Origin: Arcobacter sp. EP1
GTDB lineage: Bacteria; Campylobacterota; Campylobacteria; Campylobacterales; Arcobacteraceae
Direction: 5' to 3'
Assembly: GCA_001655195.1 (NCBI GenBank)
Contig: LPNY01000042.1
Location: 1 to 37,527 of the forward strand
DNA length: 37,527 nucleotides
The stretch's first letter is position 1; each line of letters starts with the position of its first letter. A program made the position numbers and the translations under genes. The notes under the pieces are model-generated. The model made no database searches. It was not told the DNA's origin and worked only from the letters and a program-made list of their open reading frames with translations. Shown here piece after piece: positions 8,789 to 37,415 of the stretch.

Positions 8789-9638
8789 GAATATGAAAGT
8801 CAACAATAAAACTTTTGTTATTATCTAAAAAGTGGTTTTTATGGTAAATGGCATAAGGTGGTAAGGTTTTTGCTTCATAACCACTACTGGGTAACCAAAT
8901 ATGGTAAATATAAACCATCAGTTTCACCACATCGCCATAAACACCTTCGTAGTGAAAAATAGCACACAAAGACTCTTGAATATCTATTTTACTAATTGAG
9001 TTTGTTGGCTCAAAATCTTTACTAACTTCAAAAGCAGCAACATATTGACATGTGTTATAGGGTGTAATAACTGGGTTATCATGAAAACCACCAATTTGAA
9101 CACTGCTGTCTAACTCCCTTTCATAAGCAAATGCCATAAGTCGTTGCCAAGTTTTAGCAACTGATGGGTCATAACCTTTATGACGTATATAAGCACACGT
9201 TCGTTTGGGAACAACTTTAATTGTGGGTTCAACTTGAAAAAAGTCATCATTGATTTGTTCTTCTAGGGTCACATTTTTTTTTGAAAAACTTAGGTAGGCT
9301 CCTTTTTTCCACTGGGTTGGGGTATATGAAAATCGTTGTTTAAAAGCTTTGATAAATGATGAGTGGGAACTGTATCCACACATCTGTGCAATCTCGCTGA
9401 TGGTTGAATAACGGTTAGTTATAAGTAGATTTGCTGCTTTTTGTAGACGTATGGAACTAATACGGTCAAAGAGATTCTCCCCTGTCTCTTCTTTAAAGAT
9501 ACGATGAAAGTGGTATTTGCTCACACTATTAAGCTTGGCTAACTCTTCAAGAGTAATATTCGTATCAATATAACTATAGATGTAGGCTAAGGATTGGTTA
9601 ACAATATCTGCTCGTAGGTGTTTTGTATCTTTTTTCAT
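8772..9638 (-). CDS. AraC-family regulator with GyrI-like effector domain
   Basis: The 288-residue protein has two helix-turn-helix motifs at the N-terminus (LEELAKLNSVSKYHFHRIFK about 30-49, and ISEIAQMCGYSSHSSFIKAFK about 80-100). A GyrI-like small-molecule-binding domain fills about 125-288 (TCAYIRHKGYDPS, then YHIWLPSSGYE). This is the Rob/BmrR-like arrangement, in which a bound amphipathic compound alters activity. It is divergent from the aminotransferase gene, with 119 nt between starts, and may control it or the transporter it overlaps. Confidence 0.9.
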   Translation of the reverse strand: MKKDTKHLRADIVNQSLAYIYSYIDTNITLEELAKLNSVSKYHFHRIFKEETGENLFDRISSIRLQKAANLLITNRYSTISEIAQMCGYSSHSSFIKAFKQRFSYTPTQWKKGAYLSFSKKNVTLEEQINDDFFQVEPTIKVVPKRTCAYIRHKGYDPSVAKTWQRLMAFAYERELDSSVQIGGFHDNPVITPYNTCQYVAAFEVSKDFEPTNSISKIDIQESLCAIFHYEGVYGDVVKLMVYIYHIWLPSSGYEAKTLPPYAIYHKNHFLDNNKSFIVDFHIPIRVV

Positions 9639-17532: not shown

Positions 17533-18393
17533 TTATTCTCTCGTTTGGTGAATCATAGGGGCATAGGCTTTGGTGCTCACATTTACTTTATGCCCTACTT
17601 CTAAATTTGCCGCTTCATCACTACTAATAACCACTTCGACTAACTGTTGACCAATAGCTACAATAGCAATATGAATAACATCCGCTTTTATAATTTCTAA
17701 TAGCTCACCCTCAAAAGAGAATTTAGCACTTCCTTGGGTTTTGAGTAAGACCTCTTTTGCTTTGCCATCGTTGATAACTTTACCCTGTTCTAATACAATC
17801 ACTCGATTAGAAAGTCGGTAGATTTCACTGGGGTCATGACTCACCATAATAGTTGTGGTATTAAACTCTTTGTGCAGGGTCAAAATCTCATTTTGAAGTT
17901 TGGTTCGCATGATTGGATCAAGGGCACTTAAGGGCTCATCCATAAGTAACAGTTTAGGACGGTTCATCATGGCTCGACACAGACTTACTCTCTGTTGTTG
18001 ACCACCACTAAGCGTGCTAGGCATTCTATCTTTTAACTCATCTAGTTCAGTTAGCTGTAGTAGATGCAGAGCAAGTTTTTTATCATTGTTCACATATAAA
18101 AGGTTTTGTAAAACACTCATATTGGTAAAGAGGGCATAATCTTGAAAAACAAATCCAATTTGCCGTTGTTGTACAGGAAGATTGACTTTTTTATCTAGCC
18201 AGATTTGTCCCCCTACACTGATTTCACCTTTGGTTTTTTCTAAACCTGCTAAGATTCTAAGAAGGGTCGTTTTACCACTCCCACTTTTCCCACTAAGGGC
18301 GACAAAATCACCTTGTCTGATGTGTAAATCTACGTCTAAGTGCATCACTCCATGCACACCATGTAAGGGTTTTTTTATATCAATGTTTATCAT
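17533..18393 (-). CDS. modC: Molybdate ABC transporter ATP-binding protein ModC
   Basis: The 286-residue ATPase energises molybdate (or tungstate) import with ModB and ModA. Walker A is GKSGSGKTT (about 35-43), the Q-loop is Gln84, the signature is LSGGQQQR (128-135), Walker B ends in LLLMDEP with Glu153, and the H-loop is His186. A C-terminal Mop/TOBE domain (about 225-286) binds oxyanion. The ATG at 18393 shares one base with the stop of nth (TAATG), so modC translation depends on nth. An upstream TTG or other start inside nth is less likely. Confidence 0.93.
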   Translation of the reverse strand: MINIDIKKPLHGVHGVMHLDVDLHIRQGDFVALSGKSGSGKTTLLRILAGLEKTKGEISVGGQIWLDKKVNLPVQQRQIGFVFQDYALFTNMSVLQNLLYVNNDKKLALHLLQLTELDELKDRMPSTLSGGQQQRVSLCRAMMNRPKLLLMDEPLSALDPIMRTKLQNEILTLHKEFNTTTIMVSHDPSEIYRLSNRVIVLEQGKVINDGKAKEVLLKTQGSAKFSFEGELLEIIKADVIHIAIVAIGQQLVEVVISSDEAANLEVGHKVNVSTKAYAPMIHQTRE

Positions 18394-19040
18394 TATCGGT
18401 CTTCTTTTTTTACTGGACAATATTGGCTAATAGTACAGAGTCCACACTTGGGGTTTTTAGGTAAACAGATAGTTTGCCCAAAACTTACAAGGGTAAAATT
18501 TAAACTGTTCCAAAACTCTTTGGGTACTTTTTCACATAGGGCTTTAAAAGTCTCTTTTTCAGTTTTTGTAGTGATAAATCCCCACAAATTTGGCAAACGA
18601 TGCACATGGGTATCCACTGCAATAGTTGGAATAGAAAAAGCATTGTTTAACACAATATTAGCAGTTTTTTCACCCACTCCTTTTAGACTTAATAGTTCTT
18701 CTTTTGTATTGGGAACGCTAGCTTCAAATTTTTCAATTAGATTTTGTGAAACCTCTCTTATAACTTGCGCTTTTTTACGGTACATTCCTGTGGGTCGAAC
18801 AGTTTGTTCTAACTGCTCAATTGGTATTTCAAGCAGTTGTTGGGGTGTAATTGCTGGGTTAAAAAGTTTGTTACACACTTGGGCAGTATTTTCATCTTTT
18901 GTTCGCAGACTCAATAGTGTTGCCATCAAAATAGTATAAGGGTTTCTTTCAAAAGAGTTTTTCAAAATATTACTGGGGCTATCTTTATCAATACTGTTTT
19001 GAACTGTTTTTAGTACTTTTAAAAATGTTCTTTTATTCAT
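18393..19040 (-). CDS. nth: Endonuclease III (Nth), inserted in the mod operon
   Basis: Endonuclease III removes oxidised pyrimidines and nicks the abasic site. The 215-residue protein has the helix-hairpin-helix LLSLKGVGEKTANIVL with catalytic Lys125, the catalytic Asp143 in AVDTHVHRL, and a C-terminal 4Fe-4S motif Cys-x6-Cys-x2-Cys-x5-Cys (CLPKNPKCGLCTISQYC). All needed residues are present. The ATG at 19040 is 1 nt after the modB stop (TAAGATG). The modC start overlaps its stop, so it is embedded between the two transporter subunits. Confidence 0.93.
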   Translation of the reverse strand: MNKRTFLKVLKTVQNSIDKDSPSNILKNSFERNPYTILMATLLSLRTKDENTAQVCNKLFNPAITPQQLLEIPIEQLEQTVRPTGMYRKKAQVIREVSQNLIEKFEASVPNTKEELLSLKGVGEKTANIVLNNAFSIPTIAVDTHVHRLPNLWGFITTKTEKETFKALCEKVPKEFWNSLNFTLVSFGQTICLPKNPKCGLCTISQYCPVKKEDR

Positions 19041-19041
19041 C

Positions 19042-19734
19042 TTAGATTCCAAACTTTTTATTGAGTCTGCCATTGGTGATATAAACGCTTAGCAATACTA
19101 CAAAACTAATGAGTATCATAATAGCACTGTAAATATGGGCACTACTGTAGTCTAGAATTTCAACCATTTCATAAATAGCAACAGAGGCTACTTTTGTCTC
19201 ACCTGGAATACTTCCCCCTACCATTAATACAACACCAAATTCACCAACGGTATGTGCAAAGGTGATAATCAGTGCCGTAATAAGCGAGGGTTTAATATTT
19301 GGCAAGGCTACTTTAAATAGAGTAACAAGCTTGCTTTTCCCACTAATATAACTGGCTTCTAACATGTTTTTATTGATATTTTCAAAACCACTCTGTAAGG
19401 GTTGTACCATAAAAGGTAAACTATAAAAACAACTAGCAATTACAAGCCCTGTGAAACTAAAAACCAGTTTTACTCCAAAAACTTCTTCAAAAAAAGCACC
19501 AACTGGCGAGTTATAGGATAGTGCCCACAGAAGATAAAATCCTAAAACAGAAGGGGGCAAAACAATCGGCAGTGCCGTGATAGCTTCAAGAACAGGTTTC
19601 ATTTTTGAGCGTGTTTGAGACAAATACCAAGCTAGGGGTAGACTCAAAATAAACAATATAACCGTTGTAACAAAGGCTAATTTAAAGGAGAGTAAAAAGG
19701 GAGTAAACTCCATATTAGTAAGCATTTCAATCAT
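19042..19734 (-). CDS. modB: Molybdate ABC transporter permease ModB
   Basis: The 230-residue inner-membrane protein has about five helices and the ModB/CysTW binding-protein-dependent permease signature. [26 protein letters not shown] is the EAA loop that docks on ModC, followed by [20 protein letters not shown], which is typical of ModB. It starts with an 8-nt overlap with the Mop-protein gene. Function is molybdate import. Confidence 0.94.
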
Positions 19735-20134
19735 GAGTTACCTCCAAAATCGAGATGTCACTTGATTTTATAAATACTGATAAATCATCCCCTTTTTTTA
19801 ACTGCATGTGGTTAAAAGACTCCAGAGTAATAATACTCTCCAATACCGTCTCCTTCGAGTTTTGCATGGTGATTTTTAAATTACACAACAATTTACCGCA
19901 CTCTGTATTTGTAAGGGTTCCTTGTAAGGTATTGGAAAAGCTAGTTAATCCTTGAAACTCTTTGGCAATAGAGACATGGGTAGGTTTAACTACGAGATTT
20001 ACATTGGTGCCTATTTGAATATTATTAAGTTCTAGACTCATCATTTTGATTGGCGTAGTGTTAAAATCAAAACTTACAATATGTAGACTATCAACATTTT
20101 CTATTTGTTTAACGGTTGCAGGAATTTTATTCAT
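19727..20134 (-). CDS. Di-Mop/TOBE protein of the mod operon
   Basis: The 135-residue protein consists of two Mop-like (TOBE) domains and nothing else. The first begins [12 protein letters not shown] and runs to about 65; the second runs from NTLQGTLTN to SDISILEV. Mop domains bind molybdate or tungstate in oligomers, so storage, buffering or homeostasis is likely. Campylobacter jejuni has a similar extra gene between modA and modB (recalled, not checked). I chose ATG 20134, which overlaps the modA stop by 8 nt; earlier GTG and ATG codons exist further inside modA. Confidence 0.82.
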
Positions 20135-20876
20135 AACTTTGGTACCCATATGTTTTAAAAATTGCTTGGGCTTCGTCACTTAAGATAAAATCATAAAAGT
20201 CTTGAACCTCTGGTTTGTTTTGTCCGTGTTTGAGTTTGACCATTCCTTGTTGAATGGGAGTATAAAATTGAGTGTCAATAGTTGCCCAGTGAATGTTCTC
20301 TTTAAAGTTTTTCATCTTAGAACTATATAGGGATGATTTGGCAATGATACCAATATCTGCTGCAATCAAAGCGTAACTCACCGTTTGAGAAATAGATTCC
20401 CCATAGACAAATTTACGAATAAGTGTATCTAAAATTTTTGCTTTTGCTAACGCTTCAAAAGCAGCCACTCCATAGGGAGCTGTTTTAGGATTGGCAACGG
20501 CAATCTTTTTGATATCATCTTTTAATAATATCGCCATACTAGAAGAAAAGTTTCGCGGCTTTTTGCTCAAAAATGCCAAAGACCCTTTCGCATAAACGAT
20601 AGGTTCATTTAATGCAAGTCTCTTTTTATACAGTGTATTTGGGTATTTCATATTGGCACTAAGAAAAAGATCATAGGGTGCCCCATTACTTATTTTGGCA
20701 AAGAGTTTTCCACTGCTTCCTAAAACCACACGTACTTTTGTATTTGGATAGTGGTTATTAAACGCTTTTTTTAAATCTTCAAAAGCATAACTTACATTTG
20801 CAGCAGCTGCTATAGTGATAGTATTAGCAAAAAGACTTAGGGGTAAAAGGCTTAGTAGTAAAATAGGTTTTATCAT
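20127..20876 (-). CDS. modA: Molybdate-binding periplasmic protein ModA
   Basis: The 249-residue protein has a signal peptide (MIKPILLLSLLPLSLFA) and the ModA fold. ITIAAAANVSYAFEDLKKAF comes first, then the oxyanion-binding LGSSGKLFAKISNGAPYDLFLSA. AVANPKTAPYGVAAFEAL follows, and finally DFYDFILSDEAQAIFKTYGY. The SSGKL and APYG segments are the family's ligand-contact regions. It starts 8 nt after modE and is cotranscribed with it. Confidence 0.95.
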   Translation of the reverse strand: MIKPILLLSLLPLSLFANTITIAAAANVSYAFEDLKKAFNNHYPNTKVRVVLGSSGKLFAKISNGAPYDLFLSANMKYPNTLYKKRLALNEPIVYAKGSLAFLSKKPRNFSSSMAILLKDDIKKIAVANPKTAPYGVAAFEALAKAKILDTLIRKFVYGESISQTVSYALIAADIGIIAKSSLYSSKMKNFKENIHWATIDTQFYTPIQQGMVKLKHGQNKPEVQDFYDFILSDEAQAIFKTYGYQSYE

Positions 20877-20884
20877 CTTTTGTC

Positions 20885-21664
20885 CTAAATAATATTGATA
20901 TTGTATGCTTTAAAAGAGGCATAGATAGTATCGTTGGATTTGAGTTGTAGTTTTTGACAACTCGCCGTTGTGATTTTTGCGTGGATTTGGTCTTGGTCAC
21001 AATTGATGGTGATATTACTATTAATCCCATCATCATGAATGCTCTCGATAACTCCCAATAATAAGTTTCGTGCACTGTTTGTTGAAACATCACAAGTTAG
21101 TACGATATTACTGGTCTCAATTAAAAATTGTACCTCATCATCACAGGTTAACTCTTTTGCTTGTACAAAGGTTTCACTCTCAATACAAGTGAGTTCTTGC
21201 CCACACTGTAACGCTATGGTAATCTCATAATTGCTGTTGATTTGATTCATCTTTGTGATAGTTCCACTGAGTCTACTAAAAACGGGCTCTTCACTATGGT
21301 CATCAATAATTTGTTCATTAAATGCATTTTGAAGTGTTTGAAAGTAGTTTTTATGCAGACTCTCAATTTCACCAAAGGCTTGAATAATCTCTTTGGCATG
21401 GGCAGTTATGACCGTACCCCCGCCACCTTTTCCTCCTGTTACTTTTGTAACGAGAGGTTTATTGGAGAGTTTATTCATGATATCAACACTGTCCCATGCT
21501 GCTTTATAACTCATCTTCATAGCTTTTGCTGCTTTTGTGATAGAACCATGCAGTTGGATATTTTGTAAAAGTTCAATGCGACCTCGTCCTATGAAGTTGC
21601 GATTCTCTTTTTTTATCCAAATGTTTCCATCCACATCAAAAATAGTGTTTGTTAATTTATTCAT
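20885..21664 (-). CDS. modE: Molybdate-responsive transcriptional regulator ModE
   Basis: The 259-residue protein has an N-terminal winged helix. RIELLQNIQLHGSITKAAKA is followed by MSYKAAWDSVDIMNKLSNKP and the family motif TGGKGGGGTVIT. The C-terminal half is two Mop domains (about 130-259) that bind molybdate. Length and order match E. coli ModE. As first gene of the operon it is probably repressed by itself through the palindrome at 21666-21693. No ribosome-binding site precedes the ATG; see the leaderless finding. Confidence 0.93.
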   Translation of the reverse strand: MNKLTNTIFDVDGNIWIKKENRNFIGRGRIELLQNIQLHGSITKAAKAMKMSYKAAWDSVDIMNKLSNKPLVTKVTGGKGGGGTVITAHAKEIIQAFGEIESLHKNYFQTLQNAFNEQIIDDHSEEPVFSRLSGTITKMNQINSNYEITIALQCGQELTCIESETFVQAKELTCDDEVQFLIETSNIVLTCDVSTNSARNLLLGVIESIHDDGINSNITINCDQDQIHAKITTASCQKLQLKSNDTIYASFKAYNINII

Positions 21665-21665
21665 A

Positions 21666-21693
21666 AGCGTAATATATCAAAATATATAACGCT
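21666..21693 (-). promoter_or_regulatory. ModE operator (28-bp palindrome)
   Basis: The arms AGCGTAATATAT and ATATATAACGCT are complementary at 11 of 12 positions, around a 4-nt centre. The core reads CG-N-ATATA, six bases, TATATAACG, close to the described ModE consensus CGNTATATA-N6-TATATNNCG. It starts 2 nt upstream of the modE ATG and covers the -10 box, so molybdate-bound ModE would block transcription. Confidence 0.85.
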
Positions 21694-21700
21694 TTGTCAA
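21671..21700 (-). promoter_or_regulatory. Promoter of the mod operon
   Basis: On the minus strand TTGACA (21695-21700) and TATATT (21671-21676) stand 18 nt apart. Transcription would begin about 7 nt after the -10 box, at or next to the modE ATG (21664). The ModE palindrome fills the spacer and -10 region. Confidence 0.65.
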
Positions 21701-21722
21701 ACTGCCATTGTGTGATTGTTTT

Positions 21723-21730
21723 GCTATAAT
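21723..21730 (+). promoter_or_regulatory. Extended -10 promoter of the Crp/Fnr-type gene
   Basis: TTTTGCTATAAT is an extended -10 (TG-N-TATAAT) with a perfect TATAAT at 21725-21730, 31 nt before the ATG. It diverges from the mod promoter. Confidence 0.6.
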
Positions 21731-21761
21731 TTTAAAAATAAATAGGCTAGAGTGAGTCATC

Positions 21762-22352
21762 ATGAATAAAGAAGAAAAAAGTTTTGAATTTTTAAAAAGT
21801 GTGTTGGATGGATATTATCCTCTCTGTTTAAATACTTGGCAAGCATTTATGAAAATATGCACACCTCTATGTATTGATAAACATGATTACATTTGCAGAG
21901 CCAATGAATTGCAAAAACATTTTTTCTTTGTAACAGCAGGGCTTTTACGTGTATATACTATTGATGAAAAGGGTGTAGAATACAACAAAACATTTTTTGA
22001 AGAAGGCACCTTTCCGGGTTCTATGGTCGCTTTATTAAAAGATGAACCCTCCTCTTTTGAGATACAAGCGTTAGAAAAGTGTGAACTTATATGTATTGAT
22101 TTTAAACAGTATCGTGAACTACTTTTAGCATATGATGATTTAAAACTATTTCACATAAATTATTTAGAACGAAATTGGCTCATGAAAACTGAAGCCAAAG
22201 AGATTGCTATGATTCAAGAAGATGCAAGCAGTCGTTACGATAGGTTTTTAGAAGATTACCCAACCTTAGGAAATCGATTAGCTCAGTACCATATCGCTTC
22301 GCACTTAGGTATTACCCCAACTCAATTAAGCAGAATTCGAAAAAACAGATAA
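21762..22352 (+). CDS. Crp/Fnr-family transcriptional regulator
   Basis: The 196-residue protein has a cyclic-nucleotide-binding-like beta barrel (about 30-120; HFFFVTAGLLRVYTIDEKG and FEEGTFPGSMVALL). A coiled dimer helix and a short C-terminal helix-turn-helix follow (HIASHLGITPTQLSRIRKN). It lacks the Cys cluster of Fnr and the full cAMP pocket, so the signal is unknown. It may control the transporter and acetyltransferase genes that follow on the same strand. Confidence 0.88.
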   Translation: MNKEEKSFEFLKSVLDGYYPLCLNTWQAFMKICTPLCIDKHDYICRANELQKHFFFVTAGLLRVYTIDEKGVEYNKTFFEEGTFPGSMVALLKDEPSSFEIQALEKCELICIDFKQYRELLLAYDDLKLFHINYLERNWLMKTEAKEIAMIQEDASSRYDRFLEDYPTLGNRLAQYHIASHLGITPTQLSRIRKNR

Positions 22353-22424
22353 AAAATCAACCTATGTAAATGACACTGCTTTTAGAATCCATTACAATGT
22401 GATATGATTTTAAAGGATTAAAAG

Positions 22425-22865
22425 ATGGTATATTTTATACTTCTTTCACTGTTAGCAGGTATGGCAGTTGTTACACAAGCCAATATCAATGCTTATGTTG
22501 GCACACTGCTTTCTAGTTCTGTTGTAGCAACCCTAATTGCGCTGATTTTGAGTACCTCTGTTGTTTTTATTGCTTCACTGCTGTATGTAAAACAACTACC
22601 CAGTTTTGAGACGATTAAAATTATACCCTTGTATTTATGGCTGAGTATTGGATTGTTAGGTGCTTTTGCTTTAGGCACTTTCTATTATGTGATACCCAAG
22701 ATTGGAATACTTTCGATGATTTCATACAGTTTGTGTGGACAGTTGATAATCTCCATGGTTTTTAGTCATTTTGGATGGTTAAATATGCCAGTTTCAACGA
22801 TAACTCTTAGTAAAATTCTAGGCATTATATCCATGATGATAGGTATTTTTCTAATCAATAAATAA
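22425..22865 (+). CDS. DUF606/YdcZ-type DMT transporter, single-repeat
   Basis: The 146-residue protein has about five helices (YFILLSLLAGMAVVTQANIN, then GLLGAFALGTFYYVIPKIG). This half-size form is typical of DUF606 members of the drug/metabolite transporter superfamily, which work as dimers. The substrate is unknown. It is 16 nt ahead of the arylamine N-acetyltransferase gene and probably cotranscribed with it, which hints at handling of aromatic amines. Confidence 0.82.
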   Translation: MVYFILLSLLAGMAVVTQANINAYVGTLLSSSVVATLIALILSTSVVFIASLLYVKQLPSFETIKIIPLYLWLSIGLLGAFALGTFYYVIPKIGILSMISYSLCGQLIISMVFSHFGWLNMPVSTITLSKILGIISMMIGIFLINK

Positions 22866-36794: not shown

Positions 36795-37415
36795 ATGGAA
36801 ATAGGAAACAACCCCTATAGCTACTATGTAGATTTTCATTCCAGAGCAAACGCTCAACACCGTACCGTGTCAAACCAACAAGGACACGAGCATGATTCAC
36901 GTGGTTTAGAAAAAAATGAATCCAGTGAAGAATCTAAAAACAATCCTCAACAACAAGATACAAAAAGTACCCAATTAACAGCAGATGAACGAGCCCAAGT
37001 TAACAAACTACAAGCAATCGATTCAAAAGTGCGAGCCCATGAAGCCGCCCACCAAAGTGGTGCCGCAGCTTCTGGTGGAGCATCGTTTACGTACACACGA
37101 GGCCCTGATGGAGTGATGTATGCAGTAGGTGGAGAAGTTCCTGTTAGAATTTCAACAGGTGGAACACCACAAGCTTCAATTGCTAATTTACAAGGAGTAA
37201 TTGCAACGGCACTAGCTCCTGCTGATCCAAGTCCTCAAGATATAGCTGTTGCTTCAAAGGCAAGAGTTTTGATGATGAAAGCCCAACAAGAATTTGCTCA
37301 AGAGATTCAAGAAAAAATATCTCAGTCAAATGAATATGAACAAAGAGCAATCGGAGCGTATGAAAAAAATAGTGAAGAAGAATCTAAAGAAATGAGTGAA
37401 AATATAATTGCGTAA
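36795..37415 (+). CDS. Putative metalloprotease, CJM1_0395/SprA-related family
   Basis: The 206-residue protein begins with a low-complexity, Gln/Ser/Asn-rich stretch (about 15-70). A conserved core follows with VRAHEAAHQSGAAASGGASF, which carries the zinc-metalloprotease motif His-Glu-Ala-Ala-His, and then YTRGPDGVMYAVGGEVPV. A helical C-terminal tail ends it. There is no signal peptide. The family is widely named as a metalloprotease on the HExxH motif, and I know of no tested activity. It lacks a ribosome-binding site. Confidence 0.85.
   Translation: MEIGNNPYSYYVDFHSRANAQHRTVSNQQGHEHDSRGLEKNESSEESKNNPQQQDTKSTQLTADERAQVNKLQAIDSKVRAHEAAHQSGAAASGGASFTYTRGPDGVMYAVGGEVPVRISTGGTPQASIANLQGVIATALAPADPSPQDIAVASKARVLMMKAQQEFAQEIQEKISQSNEYEQRAIGAYEKNSEEESKEMSENIIA

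Follow-up and report, generated by a model that had tools for sequence, protein, structure and literature searches.

The window analyzed here is a 37,527-nt stretch of the Arcobacter sp. EP1 genome (contig LPNY01000042.1, positions 1–37,527). It carries, on the minus strand, a molybdate-uptake operon with the gene order modE-modA-mop-modB-nth-modC.

The mod operon and the start region of modE

The first gene, modE (20885–21664, minus strand), encodes a 259-aa protein with a ModE-type helix-turn-helix (HTH) and a C-terminal Mop/TOBE domain (TIGR00637, 100.7 bits, cut-off 98.5; TIGR00638, 56.8 bits, cut-off 55; Pfam TOBE). The ModE family is described as having two C-terminal molybdate-binding domains in tandem (PMC545781); in the product of the window gene one was found, at residues 197–258, and residues 115–195, roomy enough for another, gave no TOBE match. 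modA (20127–20876, minus strand; TIGR01256, 183.5 bits), coding for the molybdate-binding protein, is preceded by a Shine-Dalgarno (SD) sequence, AGGA, at 20883–20886, with a calculated anti-SD pairing energy of −3.9 kcal/mol. A mop-like gene with a TOBE domain (19727–20179, minus strand; Pfam TOBE; TIGR00638, 47.9 bits, below the cut-off of 55) and the permease gene modB (19042–19734, minus strand; TIGR02141, 230.1 bits), whose SD is strong (−10.6 kcal/mol), follow. The possibility that modC is missing was considered and rejected, as a gene for a modC-like ATPase was found below nth, at 17533–18420 (minus strand). It aligns with positions 9–238 of the 353 of TIGR02142 (199 bits, below the cut-off), lacks the C-terminal TOBE part and has matches of 60–78% identity at loci L003, L270, L273, and L274. 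The TOBE part that is included in the ModC model stands here as the separate mop-like gene at 19727–20179 (minus strand), and in L003, L270, L273, and L274 a mop-like match likewise separates modA from modB. The nth-like frame (endonuclease III; 18393–19073, minus strand; TIGR01083, 191.7 bits, below the cut-off of 211.7) lies inside the operon between modB and modC and overlaps both; an nth in this place was also seen in L270 (genome G058), and none was found in the stretches L003, L273, and L274.

Read on the minus strand from 21700 to 21662, the start region of modE is TTGACA-18 nt-TATATT-ACGCTT-ATG. Direct reading and a promoter scan agree on a promoter with 11 of 12 positions matched, composed of a −35 hexamer TTGACA (21695–21700) and a −10 hexamer TATATT (21671–21676) with an extended TG at 21679–21678; the complete extended −10 is TGATATATT, its hexamer running from 21676 to 21671. 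Transcription usually starts seven bases past the −10 hexamer. With 6 nt separating the hexamer from the modE ATG (21662–21664), the start is expected at the A of this ATG (21664), and the geometry put forward in a preliminary description of the locus is thus confirmed in the sequence. For leaderless mRNAs, PMC3847290 used the rule of a −10 located 5–9 nt from the ATG, and the 6 nt of modE lie within this range. The modE promoter ranks first among 13 promoter-like matches in 20800–22800; shuffled sequences yielded 8.7 (SD 3.1), so promoter-like matches as such are not rare in this interval. In the whole genome (3.0 Mb), TTGACA-N16–19-TATATT-N0–30-ATG occurs twice, as compared with three times for a reversed-pattern control, and the 6-nt distance is found in modE only.

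The start codon itself is all but forced, because of an upstream stop, the lack of an SD, and the position of the next ATG. Codons read back from the ATG are CTT, ACG, ATT, TAT, and TGA, with no start codon before the stop; the in-frame TGA (21677–21679), five codons 5′ of the ATG, excludes an upstream in-frame start. Downstream starts were rejected as well: the one early candidate, a GTG at codon 11, is not preceded by an SD, and the next ATG falls within the HTH. When the 20 nt 5′ of modE were paired with the anti-SD, an energy of +0.6 kcal/mol was obtained, tied for the weakest among 32 ATG-start genes hand-picked from the 48 open reading frames listed for the window. Consistent with the preliminary description, no ribosome-binding site was seen before modE.

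The same promoter is covered by a putative ModE operator. The near-palindrome AAGCGTTATATATTTTGATATATTACGCTT (21694–21665, 30 bp) has 12 of 15 arm positions matching, a value reached by none of 2,000 base shuffles, and extends from the end of the −35 hexamer to the base before the ATG, spanning spacer, −10, and discriminator. Its 28 bp at 21666–21693 match the published ModE consensus, ATCGNTATATA-N6-TATATANCGAT (PMC545781), with 3 mismatches in 20; this is the sole match in the window, and none was found in 100 shuffles. The earlier claim that a 28-bp ModE palindrome fills the spacer and the −10 therefore stands, with the addition that the discriminator is covered too, and the box match supports the proposal that ModE may control its own synthesis through an operator on its own start. 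A scan of the own genome with CGTTATAT-N8-ATATAACG returned the operator as the only site with fewer than three mismatches. As a search for a ModE regulon, it yielded a single clear site; 19 further places had 3 mismatches each, and weaker sites were fewer than in the reversed-pattern control (20 versus 34 per strand). On the plus strand, a Crp-family gene at 21762 is preceded by a divergent promoter-like site (21702–21730; CTGCCA-17-TATAAT, with a TG); as this site starts one base past the modE −35, ModE binding might affect both promoters.

Conservation of the modE start region in the Arcobacteraceae

A ModE match (E up to 1e-15) is present in 78 of 104 same-family genomes, the own genome included, at 80 places. 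Of these, 79 are outside the window, and the start region was examined at 69 of them. An SD was found at some candidate start in 58 of these loci, one had neither an SD nor the leaderless layout, and ten (L083–L092) had the leaderless layout. Their ModE proteins are 51%–68% identical, and they come from four genera other than that of the window. Two of the ten (L088 and L089) contain a 4-base SD-like run, AGGT, within the −10 region; anti-SD pairing (−3.1 kcal/mol in L087–L089 and −2.4 kcal/mol in L090) is less clear in these relatives than for the window gene.

In all 11 members of the window clade a −10-type hexamer lies exactly 6 nt from the ATG (TATATT in ten, TACACT in one), and positions −17, −14 (a G), −12, −11, −9, −7, −5, and −1 are identical throughout. 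The block from −12 to −7 is 97% conserved versus 46%–49% in three stretches 5′ of the −35 region; for the stretch −60 to −46 the value is 0.47. TTGACA is present 17–18 nt from the −10 in ten members, L087 being without a recognizable −35. Just past the ATG, the ModE N termini vary in length (MNKLTNTIFDVDG versus MNNLFDIDG) and the upstream spacing stays constant; the fixed spacing is therefore not carried along by protein conservation. Other genes of the same loci were leaderless-like in 14 of 140 cases (Fisher p = 3e-10, relatedness ignored), a comparison in which clade members are not independent, related loci are taken as if they were so that significance is overstated, and the background of 14/140 is not a low rate. 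The comparative record of leaderless-type modE is unusually clear, and leaderless translation, as the preliminary description had it, is well supported by comparison, given the 6-nt distance in 11 of 11 members, a start codon that is all but forced, and no SD.

The same alignment bears on whether a second TATATT, at 21686–21681, could be the real −10, in which case modE would have a short leader of about 10 nt, again without an SD. The scan does list this hexamer, with ATGGCA as its −35 (9 of 12 matches), and five of the 11 clade members have it, with TATTAT in L085; however, it lies within the palindrome and has not been retained in L087–L091, whereas all 11 members have the proximal hexamer and G−14, and ten have TTGACA at 17–18 nt. 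We consider a short leader improbable.

Most modE genes of the family (58 of 69 loci) are, in contrast to the window gene, SD-led, mostly with GTG or ATG and an AAGGA-type SD. They belong to the same ModE family at about 29%–36% identity and also have CGTTATATA-like half-sites upstream (by eye). At some SD-led loci, for example L153 and L163, a ModE-like box was seen by eye right next to the SD (TATATAAGGA), which places operator and ribosome site side by side. The own genome has a second, distant ModE-like HTH match (L002, G000:C96:97459-97785; 33% identity, E = 1.5e-12), whose ATG is preceded by an SD-like GAAAGGAAAGG. Within genus g9 (G053–G068), the leaderless-type modE occurs in three of 16 genomes (G058, G065, and G066) and the distant type in 13, in 12 of which the start region was examined; the presence of two types in one genus suggests replacement or transfer.

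Clade members differ in what follows modE. The gene heads a mod operon in the window and at L003/L084, L083/L270, L086/L274, L091/L273, and L092, and these loci keep the palindrome (9–12 of 15 positions) and a box with 1–3 mismatches. At L085, L087, and L088–L090 no modABC follows modE (the search at L087 and L089 covered a short stretch only). There the palindrome is degraded, with 8, 2, 5, 6, and 6 of 15 positions matching in L085, L087, L088, L089, and L090, respectively, and the box has 2 mismatches in L085, 5 in L087, and 6–7 in L088–L090. L088–L090 have thus lost the palindrome but kept TTGACA-N17-TATATT-N6-ATG. The palindrome being kept with the mod operon and degraded elsewhere, the leaderless state tracks modE and the box tracks the transporter operon. 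We conclude that the putative operator and the predicted leaderless layout are separable in the clade. Rapid feedback, which the preliminary description had offered as the benefit of leaderless translation, is not supported as stated: the comparison speaks against speed as the reason for the layout, because the layout stays in three modE genes that lack both the palindrome and a following modABC.

ModE boxes also occur away from modE. The five genomes in which modE stands apart from modABC (G084, G085, G032, G033, and G034) have 1-mismatch sites elsewhere, at least one in each being near the mod operon by coordinates; across all 11 genomes of the clade, the total of sites with up to 2 mismatches equals that of the reversed-pattern control (28 and 28), so that only position and 1-mismatch quality argue for the clade box sites. 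In G034, where one region was examined closely, the box is directly 5′ of an SD-led modA (L298). Between box and modA in L296 and L311 there is a frame that distantly matches ModE residues 131–258, the Mop part (30%–31%).

The fixed distance from −10 to ATG might in principle be a by-product of selection on the overlapping ModE operator and not on translation. The palindrome does reach the base before the ATG, with 9–12 of 15 positions, in six of the 11 members (the window, L083, L084, L086, L091, and L092), yet L088–L090 (5–6 of 15) and L087 (2 of 15) are without it and still have the hexamer and the 6 nt, and the 26 leaderless-like Thiobacillus-type loci described below have no box site with fewer than 6 mismatches in 150 nt upstream. 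We give this explanation slightly less credit still than the short leader. Least likely is that modE is transcribed with a leader from a more distant promoter, for which there is a TTGCCA-17-GATAAT match (minus strand, 21842–21814) inside the divergent gene: the gene immediately upstream of modE is divergent, and even a leadered mRNA would lack an SD ahead of modE (+0.6 kcal/mol).

Leaderless-type starts in the own genome and in other ModE lineages

To place modE among the genes of its own genome, 242 ATG-start genes with an upstream gap of at least 40 nt were taken from 437 kb (400 kb of stretches plus the window); 13 of them, with anti-SD energies of −3.5 to −3.0 kcal/mol, fell in neither class. 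Good −10s located 5–7 nt from the ATG were found in 8 of 73 SD-less genes versus 1 of 156 SD genes (Fisher p = 5e-4), with −10 weights and score cut-offs (6.0 here, 5.5 in the survey of relatives) that we set after inspecting the data. In SD genes, −10s were most often 24–32 nt upstream. The sample shows a small leaderless class. Spacing in its eight genes is 5 nt in five, 6 nt in two, and 7 nt in one, and modE alone has a −35 that matches at all 6 positions, as compared with 2–4 in the other seven. Of the 104 promoters predicted in the sample, two have a perfect TTGACA, and modE accounts for one of them. Promoters of Campylobacter jejuni are reported to combine an extended −10 with periodic AT-rich sequence instead of a clear −35 (PMC3656092), which makes the retention of TTGACA in ten of the 11 clade members notable. 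Two further SD-less starts were seen in the window, one at 9638 (minus strand; TGATAAAAT-N5-ATG, score 6.6) and one at 36795 (plus strand) with a weaker TAAAAT-N7-ATG (by eye).

A wider survey comprised 249 ModE rows (248 homologues and the window), of which 46 were scored as leaderless, 4 as leaderless with a 4-base SD-like run, 173 as SD, 25 as neither, and 1 as without a start; these counts include duplicates (L003 is the contig of L084, L047 and L048 share a start region, and others may repeat). The class SD stands for at least 4 SD bases at any candidate start, leaderless calls use the best-scoring ATG, and background genes were scored at the best ATG within the first 25 codons. For lineages outside the family, the rows represent part of the matches listed; many others, including those with internal stops or in second copies, were left out.

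Leaderless-like modE genes form three groups: the window clade, Thiobacillus and its kin, and part of a Sulfurimonadaceae/Hydrogenimonadaceae clade. Among Thiobacillus and kin, 26 of 28 loci are leaderless-like versus 3 of 225 other genes of the same loci; the best-scoring ATG is not the first ATG in 13 of the 26. Their spacing is 6 nt in 23 and 7 nt in 3, mostly with TGCTACACT. In the Sulfurimonadaceae/Hydrogenimonadaceae clade, 7 of 12 rows are leaderless-like, two of the seven with an SD-like run. When window proteins were used as queries on the available stretches, no modA, modB, or modC match was found beside the 28 Thiobacillus-type genes, except for a weak modC-like one at L058; L051, L062, and L189, of the Sulfurimonadaceae/Hydrogenimonadaceae group, have mod genes next to modE. 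In both of these groups, ModE boxes within 150 nt upstream have at least 5 mismatches. A Helicobacteraceae row outside the three groups (L012) combines a box with 2 mismatches and a TATACT 7 nt from the ATG and is perhaps a second case of an operator on a leaderless start. The single-row leaderless calls L005, L025, L030, and L039 are weak.

A tree was built from the 247 usable rows of the 249, thinned to 152, over 118 columns; its bootstrap is unsettled and 53 forks are open. On this tree, the leaderless label changes 11 times, at least 8 of the changes being forced by starred branches, versus a mean of 29.5 for shuffled labels. A tree this short does not permit firm conclusions about the deep branches. 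Its best reading is probably that leaderless modE arose separately in the three groups; the alternative is one ancestral gain followed by many losses. We tentatively suggest, at somewhat less than an even chance, that modE repeatedly became leaderless, that it is the repressor gene and not the operator that is selectively held in this state, and that leaderless initiation is a recurrent device that keeps a metal sensor scarce relative to its transporter.

Proposed expression of modE and comparison with known systems

Taken together, the best explanation of the locus, and in our judgment a highly probable one, is that modE heads the mod operon, is leaderless from the A of its own ATG, and would be repressed by molybdate-loaded ModE. 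A near-consensus σ70 promoter would transcribe modE as the first gene of the molybdate-uptake operon. By the spacing, transcription would start at the A of the modE ATG, giving an mRNA that begins 5′-AUG, and ribosomes would initiate on this 5′ AUG without an SD; modA, the second gene, would be translated from its own SD. Leaderless initiation, taken by itself, is also the best reading of the modE start, and one we hold with nearly the same confidence. Judging from the match and position of the site, molybdate-loaded ModE would bind the palindrome and block RNA polymerase. The cI gene of phage lambda, when expressed from PRM, likewise gives a leaderless mRNA for an autoregulated repressor, as proposed here for modE; it differs in being a phage gene and in its protein and logic.

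A closer parallel in layout is the acuR-acuI-dddL operon of Rhodobacter sphaeroides, where 5′RACE placed the mRNA start exactly at the acuR AUG, an inverted repeat in the acuR promoter is the operator, and the repressor shuts down its own operon (PMC3017554). There, as in the mod operon, the regulator gene comes first, an inverted repeat lies over the promoter, and only later genes have an SD. AcuR, however, is a TetR-family protein released by acrylate, whereas the window protein is of the ModE type and is expected to act with molybdate, and the leaderless start is proven for acuR and predicted for modE. A translational fusion of acuR reached about 7.5% of that of acuI (PMC3017554). By analogy, we conjecture that the leaderless start may keep ModE synthesis low relative to the SD-led transporter genes, and that this low repressor output, over speed of feedback, would be the most likely benefit. 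It would explain why the layout is kept in modE genes separated from the operon, which feedback speed would not.

Leaderless mRNAs are proven in the Epsilonproteobacteria C. jejuni and Helicobacter pylori (PMC3847290). Of 471 primary 5′ UTRs in C. jejuni, 12 begin at the start codon itself, and nth and mutY are among the leaderless genes; 'modE' and 'modA' are absent from the main text of that report, supplements aside. These mRNAs resemble modE in having a σ70 −10 located 5–9 nt from the ATG and no SD. Their conservation is described as poor (PMC3847290), whereas the layout is fixed in 11 of 11 members of the window clade. Judging by titles and the openings of abstracts, none of the matches listed in our literature search describes a leaderless modE. 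The window gene would extend the known leaderless, self-regulated operons to a repressor that responds to a metal. Its close relatives amount to a natural experiment: since operator and leaderless start are uncoupled in them, the roles of the two can be tested separately. In a group whose leaderless mRNAs have been described as poorly conserved (PMC3847290), the modE layout has been kept across genera.
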